Assembly: GCA_029247265.1 (NCBI GenBank) | Contig: JAQWLN010000010.1 | Location: forward strand, 1-64,000 | Direction of reading: 5' to 3' | DNA length: 64,000 bases | Source of the DNA: Fuerstiella sp. | Lineage (GTDB): Bacteria; Planctomycetota; Planctomycetia; Planctomycetales; Planctomycetaceae | Part shown: in pieces, positions 53,964 through 62,271 of the stretch | Layout: every line of letters begins with the position of its first letter | Position numbering within the stretch: the first letter of the stretch is position 1 | Notes under the pieces: generated by a model | What the model saw: only the letters and a program-made list of their open reading frames with translations | Database searches by the model: none | Told to the model about the DNA's origin: nothing | Program-made: the position numbers and the translations under genes

Positions 53964-54329
53964 TGCAATTGTCCGTCAATGTTTGGCCAGGGCGGTAATT
54001 GTTTAGGTCAATTCGAGAGAAACAGGGATTCCAGCGATAACAGCGGCCCGAAAAGAAGGCCGACTGACCTTCCCTGGGTTTCTCGTCTCTGAGTGTTCGA
54101 TTCCGAGTATTGCACTGGAAAGAAAGTTTCCCATTCTTCATGGAAGGCACTCCCCCCCAAAAGGAACGTGTTTTATGGCGAACCGGCCCCGACTTCAATT
54201 ACCCCAGACCAACGTTCCCGACGATCGCTAAAGACAACCCAATCGTTTCGTCGATGAGGGACCTCGGTGAGCGGTCCGGCTACACAGAACGAATCGGCAG
54301 ATTCTGCAGTTGGCGCTCCATTTTGTGTT

Positions 54330-54351
54330 ACTCGACTCTCCAGAGTCGAGT
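54330..54351. repeat. Perfect palindrome 1 in leader of the helicase operon
   Basis: ACTCGACTCT-CC-AGAGTCGAGT is a perfect inverted repeat with 10-base arms. CTCGACTCT recurs at 54399-54407. It could be a protein-binding operator or fold as a hairpin; no T tract follows directly. Confidence 0.6.
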
Positions 54352-54398: not shown

Positions 54399-54418
54399 CT
54401 CGACTCTGGAGGGTCGGC
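54399..54418. repeat. Imperfect palindrome 3, partial copy of palindrome 1
   Basis: CTCGACTCTGGAGGGTCGGC repeats the CTCGACTCT arm of palindrome 1 and is near-palindromic (CGAC-CT..AG-GTCG). It ends 23 bases before the ATG at 54442. Confidence 0.45.
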
Positions 54419-54441: not shown

Positions 54442-54978
54442 ATGTCAAAAAGCGGACATTCAGATCAATTACGACTGGGATTCATGGCGGCTGTAGAAGT
54501 CGAGGGCCGAGGGTGCGTCGGTGGCCTGCTGGTGACAAATCACAACGGTCGCCCGCTGGAGTTCCAGTGCACGACGCCCGTCAAACCTGACAGAACTCAG
54601 GAGATTCTATACGGCAGAATGCTGAGACCCTGGTTGCTGGGTGAACTCATTGGCAAAACGCTGCTTGACCGCGTTTCGATCAAACCTGAATTGATTGTGA
54701 CCAGCGATCCCGATCTGCTGGAACTGCGAAACCACACTCAAACGCCCGTCGCCTGCACGGCCGATCAACCGTCGAGGGTCGACGCTGCACGACATGGTAC
54801 GGACAATACGGCTGAACTCGGCGGACGCCACCTGCAATTTCATGACAGCCATCTTGATGACAGCAGCTTCGTCATAAAACAGCTGCATCTGATTCCCGGG
54901 CAGGCAGATCTGGAGGAACCGCTGGAGCGGGTTCAGGAAGCGTTGAACGAGACGATCAAAACGGTGCTGACACGATGA
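54442..54978 (+). CDS. Hypothetical protein translationally coupled to an SNF2 helicase
   Basis: No family recognised. The 178-residue product starts [21 protein letters not shown]; the first ~90 residues look like a mixed alpha/beta fold ([60 protein letters not shown]), then a polar, possibly flexible stretch, and a C-terminal helix ([20 protein letters not shown]). No signal peptide or membrane span. Its last four bases overlap the helicase start (ATGA), a sign of coupled translation and probably a physical or functional partnership. Alternative starts are TTG at 54427 and ATG at 54484. Confidence 0.75.
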
Positions 54979-56915
54979 GCCATAGCCGATCGTCCTCAGC
55001 GATTTCGGAGCAAAGCAAACGAGTGCCCCTCGAGCACAAATCGTCTGAGCCGGAAACGCCAGTGGACCGCAGCAAGACGGACAAAACCTCAGAGCTGCGC
55101 AGCACTGACCATTCCACGCCGCCTGACGTGCACAACGTTGACCTGTGCAAATCAGTTGATGTCGCCAGTGCCGGATTCAACCCGGCATTGAAGCGAGAAC
55201 CGCACATCGATACTGTTTCGATTCCCGTCGAACAGCGCCTGGATTTCGTTCCTTCGTGGAAGCCGCGTCGCATTCGCGTGAAGTGCATCGGCCTGACGCT
55301 GCCGGAAGGTGCCGCGTTTCAACCGCCGGAAGAAAAGAATGAGACAACATCCGACGGCACCGAACTCAAGGTAATCGGCCCCAAAAAAACAGCGGCTGGC
55401 GATGGCGGTGGCAGCGAAAAACCACAGCGGACTCGAATCAAGCCGCCCCCAAATGCACTGTCACTGCAGGACCGCCTATTCTACCTGCTGCAACCGCCAC
55501 TCGAATCGTGGCTGGCGGGGCAGGAACTGATTATGCCGTTCGAACCCTTTCCCTACCAATACGAAGGTATTGCGTGGATGTTCGCTCGGCACTCTGCATT
55601 ACTGGCCGACGAGATGGGACTAGGCAAAACGATGCAGACAATCACCGGCATCCGATTGCTGCTCCGCAGCGGCCAGGTCAATCGCATCCTGCTGATCTGT
55701 CCGAAGCCTCTTATTCCCAACTGGCAGCGAGAATTCCAGACATGGGCAGAAGAATTACCTATCGTGACAATTGAAGGCAGCGGGGCTCGCCGCCGCATGC
55801 TGTGGACGATGCCGGGTGTACCGATTCTGATCACAAACTATGAATCAATGACCCGGGACCTGCCCGAGTTTCCGGAAGACGAACAACCAAATTTTGATTT
55901 GCTTGTACTGGACGAAGCCCAACGCATCAAGAACCGAGACTCCCGTACAGCCCAGGCGGCTCGAAGTATCAATCGTCGGCGCAGCTGGGCGCTGACTGGT
56001 ACGCCTATCGAAAATCGTCCGGAAGAACTGGCTTCGCTGTTCGAGTTCATGGAAGTGATTCCTGCACGAGCCTCACCGGACCTCAGGCAGCTGGCAGCAT
56101 TGGCGAATGAACACATCCTGCGTCGGACCAAAGATCTGGTCATGAAGGATATGCCGCCACGCATCGACCGCGATGCCGAACTCGAACTCACACAGGCACA
56201 ACAGTACGCATACACGACCGCAGAGAAAGAGGGAATCATTCAGCTGAATGAACTCGGCGATTCCATCAGCGTTCAGCACGTCTTCGAATTGGTTCTGCGA
56301 CTAAAACAAATCACAAACTACGACCCGCTCACAAACGAAAGCGCGAAGCTGGAACGGCTGGTCGCGGACATGGAAGAAATTGCCGCCAGTGGCAGCAAGG
56401 CTATTCTGTTCAGTCAGTGGACGAAGACAATCGACTGGCTGGCCGAACGACTACAGCAGTTCAACCCGCTGGTATACCACGGTGGCGTTCCTACAAAAAA
56501 ACGCGAACCGATTCTGGCTAAGTTCAAGGAAGATCCGGACGCACACATCATCCTGATGAGTTACGGTACCGGAGCCGTCGGATTGAACCTTCAGTTTGCC
56601 CACTACGTTTTTCTATACGATCGCTGGTGGAATCCGGCGATTGAAGACCAGGCGATTAATCGAGCTCATCGGATTGGCGTTTCTGCGCCGGTAATCGTCA
56701 CGCGTTTTATCTGCAAAGACACCATCGAAGAACGCATTGACCGAGTGCTGCGTGAGAAACGAGAACTGGCAGAAGCGATTCTTGGCGATGGCGACAATGA
56801 AAACGTCTCACTGGGGCTTGATGCTTCAGAGATCTTCGGGCTGTTCGATTTAAAAAAACGCACTGACAAAGGCCAGGCCAGGTCGATCGGCCCTGCCCGA
56901 CCGGACGCAGCGTAG
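54975..56915 (+). CDS. SNF2-family DEAD/DEAH-box ATPase
   Basis: A 646-residue Swi2/Snf2-type double-stranded nucleic-acid translocase. The first ~190 residues are unique and partly disordered. The motor domain follows: Q-motif-like [15 protein letters not shown], Walker [12 protein letters not shown] (Lys218), motif Ia [16 protein letters not shown], Walker [12 protein letters not shown], motif [18 protein letters not shown], then the second lobe with [52 protein letters not shown]. No nuclease or methylase domain is attached. Bacterial relatives include RapA (RNA polymerase recycling) and helicases of defence systems; neither role can be assigned. It forms an operon with the upstream 178-residue protein. 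Confidence 0.93.
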
Positions 56916-60874: not shown

Positions 60875-61011
60875 CGGGTGAACCTTCGTTCCTAAGGGAA
60901 GCAACAGGGGCACCATAGCAGCAAGTCGACTGCTGGCGCAACGGTTGCATCGAAGTGTGTTCATGCTCAAACTGGCGAACAAGGCAACTAAATTCTTCGC
61001 CGGAGCACAAC

Positions 61012-62271
61012 ATGGCGCTGTTTTCGTCGACTCAGATATCGTGGAACGAACCGTGGTTTTTCTTAGTCCGCATTCGCACGGCGCGCAGTTGGATGCCACG
61101 CATGGCAACGGCTTTTGTTGTCATGGCCGTTATGTTTCTGGCCACGTATTTCTTCGACAACGGACGGTTCGCACTTGTCGAAGCGGCTTTGCTAAGCCTC
61201 GTCTGCGGACTGGTAGTCCTGCTGCTTCTTGACAAGGGCAATGTTCAACGGGAGGTGAGCGTCCAGAAGGACTGCATTGTCGTCAACAGCGCCATGGGCA
61301 GGACATGGCACTCCGTCTTCAAGCTCGAGGACATCGAAGCCGTTGAGTTGATGCGAGCCGATGAATGGAGCTATTCCGTCAATGGCATGGTGATTGATCA
61401 TGGCGATGAAGGATTCCTGGTAGCCGTGCCGCCAAAAGTGTCTCTGGAGACTTTGGCAAATATTCTGTACCGCCTGGACCTTGCCGTCAGTCTGTCTGAC
61501 TGGGAACCCCCGGAAGGCGATCCTCGCACCAAGGTAAAGGATGATCTTCAGCTGGATGCAGAACGAGCGGTCGGAGTCATCGATACGAAAGCTCTTGAAG
61601 GAGAAGAGAAGAAGCTCGTATCCCCGGTGCAGATTGGAATACAGCTCGTCATCGGATTGGGTCCATTGTTGCTTGGGCTGATCGGGGCTGTGGTGGCCGG
61701 TATTTATCTGTACCGGCACTTGAACGAATTGGACATTGTGAACAGATCACTGATTGGTGGCGGCGCTTTTGCCGGTCTGGTCGCCGGTTTTCTGTACCTG
61801 ATCAAGATCGGTCTGTTTGTGAGTTCTGCGTATGCAATCAAGGTGGGCAGAGCATCGATGCAGAGCCGAGTGGATCCACTGTTCAGTGGACTGGAAGATG
61901 ATCTGGTCGCCCTCGATTTGTACGGTCCGGAAAAGTGGACCAAACCAGGCATGGAAGATGATTTCGGCTTTCTGCAGATCGATCGAGATCTACGCCTGCT
62001 ATGGTTCGAAGGAAACACGAACCGGTGGACCCTGCCCTTCAGCGCTCTCACGTCATGTCGGATCGAAGAAGCGATTATGGGGAGCGAAGGCAATGAAAAT
62101 GCGGAAAGACGTTATTTCGTGGTACTGTCAGCGCGTCAGGAAGGTGAAGAAGAAGACTGGGAAAACGGCCTGATCTATGTTCGAACCGAAATCGGGAATG
62201 ACAGCCACGAACGTCGATACGACCGATCGCGATTGCTGTTCACTCAACTGTCTGATGCCATCGGCGGTTGA
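61012..62271 (+). CDS. Membrane protein with two apparent TM-plus-PH-like repeats, unknown function
   Basis: No family recognised. From the chosen start (ATG at 61012) two N-terminal transmembrane segments (ATAFVVMAVMFLATYFF, LVEAALLSLVCGLVVLLLL) are followed by a beta-rich soluble segment (VSVQKDCIVVNSAMGRTW, FKLEDIEAVELMRADEW, EGFLVAVPP). Two more membrane segments (IGIQLVIGLGPLLLGLIGAV, LIGGGAFAGLVAGFLYLIKI) precede a second beta-rich segment (FGFLQIDRDLRLLWFEGNTN, RWTLPFSALTSCRIEEA, RYFVVLSARQE). This looks like duplicated membrane plus pleckstrin-homology-like architecture, an inference from pattern alone. It lies 137 bases downstream of ileS on the same strand. Confidence 0.75.
   Translation: MALFSSTQISWNEPWFFLVRIRTARSWMPRMATAFVVMAVMFLATYFFDNGRFALVEAALLSLVCGLVVLLLLDKGNVQREVSVQKDCIVVNSAMGRTWHSVFKLEDIEAVELMRADEWSYSVNGMVIDHGDEGFLVAVPPKVSLETLANILYRLDLAVSLSDWEPPEGDPRTKVKDDLQLDAERAVGVIDTKALEGEEKKLVSPVQIGIQLVIGLGPLLLGLIGAVVAGIYLYRHLNELDIVNRSLIGGGAFAGLVAGFLYLIKIGLFVSSAYAIKVGRASMQSRVDPLFSGLEDDLVALDLYGPEKWTKPGMEDDFGFLQIDRDLRLLWFEGNTNRWTLPFSALTSCRIEEAIMGSEGNENAERRYFVVLSARQEGEEEDWENGLIYVRTEIGNDSHERRYDRSRLLFTQLSDAIGG

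Follow-up and report, generated by a model that had tools for sequence, protein, structure and literature searches.

SNF2 motors are common in bacteria, and few of them have known partners or substrates. The locus described here raises the question whether such a motor works together with a small protein encoded directly in front of it, and what this protein could contribute. In the window (the whole stretch of 64,000 nucleotides that was analysed, from a genome of the Planctomycetaceae whose nearest named relatives are Fuerstiella) two genes lie one behind the other on the forward strand. The first, here called P1 (54442..54978; ATG at 54442, TGA ending at 54978), encodes a protein of 178 amino acids; the second, P2 (54975..56915; ATG at 54975, stop ending at 56915), encodes an SNF2-family ATPase of 646 amino acids. 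The two share an ATGA overlap at 54975..54978 (+), and both genes lie where the initial annotation had placed them. P1 is present in one copy in the source genome, and its ATG start is kept within the genus. Our main reading, to which we assign a probability of roughly 45%, is that P2 is a class-wide SNF2 translocase and that P1, a protein of predicted Endonuclease V (EndoV)/UvrC fold, is the recognition or targeting subunit that would direct the motor, the two forming a chromosomal nucleic-acid machine.

P1 represents a real protein family. GTDB contigs encode 456 relatives. The 80 that were listed come from Planctomycetota or look as if they did, with a few carrying the label Kuenenia or simply 'bacterium'. 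P1 matched none of the models in Pfam, NCBIfam or PADLOC, and a comparison of 39 diverse members with Pfam gave stray single matches only. The family signature starts with G[FY]L (residues 13-61), followed further on by L.GELIG.TL, P.L.L......L.LR....PV and, at the C-terminus, DL.EPF.RVREAL.E. The start of the C-terminal helix (residues 159-170; 54916..54951, +) carries the invariant pattern EP.xR...A..E: according to the column counts E159, R163 and A167 are invariant and E170 is kept in 97-100%.

What P1 might be is suggested by its predicted structure. The AF2 model (built from 67 sequences; mean pLDDT 86.6, pTM 0.84) has, according to DSSP, a beta1-beta2-beta3-alphaA-beta4-alphaB-beta5 core at residues 12-107 (54475..54762, +), which holds the invariant columns of the signature at 13-61, and then a beta hairpin and two helices: the layout of an RNase H-like fold. 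When the model is compared to the PDB with Foldseek, the top 33 chains (E < 0.001) are all EndoV or the C-terminal half of UvrC, with best E-values of 1.3e-5 for EndoV and 6.5e-5 for UvrC (the latter at ranks 13, 15 and others); RNase H, Argonaute and Prp8 follow only after these 33. EndoV again comes first among viral models. Within the RNase H-like superfamily, EndoV and UvrC together make up a single clade (PMC3985635). Taking together the translation, the relatives, the AF2 model and the Foldseek matches, P1 is predicted to fall in this EndoV/UvrC subclass of the RNase H-like fold, and its family appears to be new to the superfamily.

Given that the TM-scores of these matches are modest (0.34-0.52) and that profile matches are borderline or lacking, the matches point to a predicted membership of the fold and not to close kinship. 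Against the EndoV profile, hhalign gives P-values of 0.014-0.015, which are borderline as equally high scores came from 2 of 60 block shuffles, and none of the 39 members matches PF04493 (EndoV) at E-values up to 1. For the C-terminal RNase H-like domain of UvrC (PF08459) the hhalign probability is 0.4% and there is no Pfam match; sequence homology of P1 to UvrC was consequently rejected. The proposed homology to EndoV and UvrC therefore rests on the predicted fold. A role of P1 as replacement of either enzyme was likewise rejected: true UvrC is found nearly everywhere (28 of 29 genomes have it as a gene of its own), while EndoV is patchy (it occurs separately in 17 of 39 relatives), and both coexist with P1.

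The alternative that survives best would make P1 an active non-canonical nuclease, with P2 as the translocase that delivers or clears its substrate: a motor-nuclease repair pair. Next to the predicted fold, several acidic positions agree with this. Helix A has E68, a position that is acidic in 97-100% of members and lies 14 residues before the beta4 Pro, close to the spacing in EndoV (catalytic Glu 15 before), and position 88, where beta4 ends, carries D or E in most members (58-74%), although these residue equivalences derive from a weak profile match plus spacing and not from superposition. In addition, little or no variation is seen at E40 and, in the C-terminal helix, at E159 and E170. However, the first metal-binding Asp of EndoV and UvrC lies in beta1 (AGxDVSY and EGVDIAH), whereas beta1 of P1 reads LGFLT and no conserved acid is present at residues 12-17 across the family (E19 is acidic in 62-96%). 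Position 88 is Ser in the genus of the window, and both the EndoV 'HPR' and the UvrC 'DGGKGQ' motif are absent from P1. Judged by these residues the catalytic tetrad of P1 is incomplete, as it fails the full EndoV set (beta1 Asp, helix-A Glu, beta4 Asp, C-helix Asp). Such a loss often means inactivity (PMC3985635), yet DUF99/Endo_dU (PF01949), which has an EndoV-like fold and, as P1, an incomplete DEDD tetrad without conserved first Asp, still cleaves deoxyuridine DNA (PMC11585767); the sequence of P1 is compatible with either state. No match to PF01949 was obtained for any of the 39 P1 members. We know of no SNF2 partner of DUF99/Endo_dU. Overall, an active nuclease seems unlikely to us.

P2 is, by its Pfam matches and motifs, a standard intact SNF2 motor. 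The first lobe (PF00176, SNF2-rel_dom; E 1.2e-49, 169.5 bits against a cut-off of 24.9) spans residues 194-449 (55554..56321, +), with motif I DEMGLGKT at 55608-55631 and motif II DEAQ; the helicase C-terminal lobe (PF00271, Helicase_C; E 5.5e-19, 68.9 bits against a cut-off of 23.5) spans residues 469-568 (56379..56678, +). Walker A (GLGKT), Walker B (DEAQ/H) and the motif VI arginines are intact, and invariant or nearly so in 35 orthologues. The closest structure in the PDB is the SNF2/Rad54 double-stranded-DNA translocase SSO1653 of Sulfolobus (1z63, E 3.5e-55), which has the two RecA-like lobes and all SNF2 motifs in common with P2; P2 differs in being co-encoded with P1 and in the residues added before the core. 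The claim that SNF2 ATPases in bacteria usually need a partner was overstated, as there is no general rule of this kind.

Within bacteria a precedent for a different role is RapA (HepA), a proteobacterial motor of the same SNF2 family that remodels and recycles RNA polymerase. By analogy, the pair might act on RNA polymerase with P1 as an RNase H-fold adaptor resembling a transcription factor, comparable to the YqgF-like domain of Spt6/Tex, and an Spt6-containing elongation complex is indeed found among the weak fold matches of P1 (Foldseek rank 48). Nonetheless, P2 reaches 53.3 bits where the NCBIfam RapA model has a cut-off of 576, and no recurrent linkage to RNA polymerase genes was seen in the flanks examined. 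RapA is not, to our knowledge, dependent on a co-encoded partner with an RNase H fold. A RapA-like function is thus considered quite unlikely.

Returning to the preferred reading, in which P1 would direct the P2 motor, a possible site of contact lies ahead of the ATPase core. The N-terminus of about 190 residues, which the initial annotation called unique, is confirmed in length by the start of SNF2-rel_dom. Its first part (residues 1-150; 54975..55424, +) is probably disordered, as indicated by AF2 (pLDDT < 50). By the alignment and the N-termini of other families, it contains short conserved motifs: G.N.AL.R near 67-74 and GLTLPEG.AF near 105-114. Visual inspection shows a hydrophobic-P-E/A-G motif that recurs ahead of the core in different families. 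The AF2 model of the whole of P2 was rejected for reading the N-terminus, its pLDDT of 62 being too poor. The second part (residues 151-190; 55425..55544, +) is, by the alignment, a conserved pre-core segment with T153, D166-F169, Y170, L172, Q173 and L176 invariant, and it can be recognized in those P2 N-termini of other families that were read. One genome of the class (G295) has a P2 orthologue without P1; this is the most diverged orthologue (448 bits), and here the 151-190 segment is missing. Because the segment is absent in the single genome that has P2 and lacks P1 (one data point), residues 151-190 are suggested to touch P1 and constitute a candidate partner-binding segment.

Evidence that the two genes belong together comes from their distribution. 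We drew 120 genomes of Planctomycetia, each at least 95% complete, and counted P2 orthologues at E-values up to 1e-100. P1 is present in 93 and P2 in 94 of these genomes, with both in 93 and neither in 26; these are not independent trials, and the two-by-two count overstates independence since one family-level group (f2) lacks both genes, which may reflect a single evolutionary event. P1 lies directly upstream of P2, in the same order and on the same strand, in 84 of the 93 genomes with both. Among 80 named loci, 76 have enough downstream DNA to be tested, and in all 76 a P2 orthologue adjoins P1 on the same strand. Neither gene was found outside the class (294 genomes drawn phylum-wide; about 240 Planctomycetota genomes outside the class). 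The pair is thus real and ancient, and the proposal that it forms an undescribed two-gene unit is borne out by this class-wide co-occurrence and linkage: far from being missing or located elsewhere in the majority of genomes that have the helicase, the upstream gene accompanies it in 93 of 94 and adjoins it in 84.

Could the two genes merely be co-transcribed, or neighbours by history, without any joint work of their products? The overlap itself argues little against this: only 24 of 76 related pairs could use it, and even pairs from the genus differ, some of them being separated by 37-105 nt. Translational coupling is therefore not a constant feature, and to take the overlap as proof of joint synthesis, as had been done, goes too far; what has been kept is the association of P1 and P2. 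Linkage is also lost in places, with some genomes of two family-level groups (f3 and f1) being unlinked. In total 9 of the 93 genomes keep the genes at separate places: in G133 they are 220 kb apart on one contig, and in G035 and seven f3 genomes they are on different contigs. In G038, from a further family (f4), both genes are present and unlinked as well. However, P1 and P2 are kept as a pair across many family-level groups, and every other neighbour is exchanged: conservation does not extend to the flanks, where the commonest other gene is seen in 25 loci, compared with about 75 for P1 and P2. Moreover, both genes are kept after separation and are absent together. Linkage across many family-level groups and retention after separation are the stronger evidence for the pair, and they make the absence of a joint function quite unlikely.

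Two exceptional cases deserve mention. An apparent fusion of P1 and P2 into one long frame (G389) was rejected, given that a TAG separates the two, which are adjacent genes. In one f3 genome a second, diverged P1 homologue is found away from the P1-P2 locus (L158, G380:C5:306855-307337, E 3.4e-29); this is a rare paralogue.

The surroundings in the window are of a housekeeping nature: a HAD phosphatase, a glycogen phosphorylase, a phosphoribosyltransferase (pyrE-like) and ileS. None of the viral contigs, plasmids or phages in the collections searched contained a relative of P1, and an origin from mobile elements was rejected on this ground. As the pair is single-copy and near-universal in most families, these observations argue for a housekeeping role and not for defence, and the association with defence islands raised by the initial annotation is not supported. 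An anti-phage system related to the SNF2-bearing DISARM, Zorya or Dpd is accordingly hardly credible: the P2 core does match their DrmD, ZorD and DpdE models, as any SNF2 motor would, but stays far below the NCBIfam equivalog cut-offs (93.8 bits against 610, 140.6 against 1500 and 66 against 500, respectively).

Two further candidates for membership of the unit were rejected. A conserved coiled-coil protein of 150 amino acids, encoded divergently from P1, is also present in f2 (which has neither P1 nor P2), unlinked in f3 and absent from f1. It nevertheless is an undescribed coiled-coil-like family in its own right, lying divergently to P1 in the majority of families other than f1 and f3 (L172:6045-6509, L173:6012-6458, L031:2302-2727 and others); it is unlinked in f2 as well, and still present as neighbour in G295 (locus L157). 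Many f1 loci have a PaaK-like ligase upstream; this is confined to part of one family and represents ordinary synteny.

Some additional features were observed near the pair. The divergent intergenic region between P1 and the phosphoribosyltransferase gene contains a palindrome, CTCGACTCTCCAGAGTCGAG, at 54331-54350, and some 70 bp further on a second copy that has diverged (54399-54418). The two closest relatives (L002, L003) retain both copies, and the draft genome has the core palindrome a single time; from its sequence the arrangement resembles an operator pair. A further, short near-palindrome, GCAGATTCTGC, is found at about 54290-54310 of the window. It or a variant of it precedes P1 in all, or at least most, of eight genomes of the Fuerstiella group (L001-L008) and may be a regulatory site. 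Behind ileS, a protein of 438 amino acids (60955-62271, +) has no Pfam match at 1e-5.

In the reading that we prefer, P1 and P2 would be two subunits, or obligate partners, of a chromosomal machine of the Planctomycetia. P2 would be an ATP-driven translocase of the SNF2 type moving on double-stranded DNA, and P1 would bind a nucleic-acid structure, a lesion or a nucleoprotein and thereby recruit or gate the motor, perhaps through residues 151-190 of P2 and the motifs preceding them. P2 might then displace or remodel whatever is bound at the site marked by P1, in a setting of DNA maintenance or at the interface of repair and transcription. Direct contact between the two, recognition by P1 without catalysis and a housekeeping role on DNA are what we infer here. 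A more specific version, which we put forward tentatively and at somewhat less than even odds, is a lesion- or structure-directed remodeller: an SNF2 translocase with a repurposed, possibly still catalytic EndoV/UvrC-fold specificity subunit, serving core DNA maintenance in one class only.

In the open-access literature searched, the pair is nowhere described, and the main text of a paper on essential genes of P. limnophila does not name it (PMC10632474). The type of motor and the fold are each known; the combination of P1 with P2 and the P1 family appear to be new. If the predicted fold is right, P1 would add an undescribed family to the RNase H-like superfamily. Planctomycetia have an unusual chromosome and cell biology, and genetic tools exist for them (Planctopirus limnophila). 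The nearly invariant class-wide pairing with P1 of predicted EndoV/UvrC fold provides a concrete and testable partner for an SNF2 motor. Given that P1 and P2 are kept as a pair across the whole class, our results suggest a so far unstudied DNA machine with a housekeeping role, as opposed to an antivirus system, and point to a core nucleic-acid process that is peculiar to the Planctomycetia.
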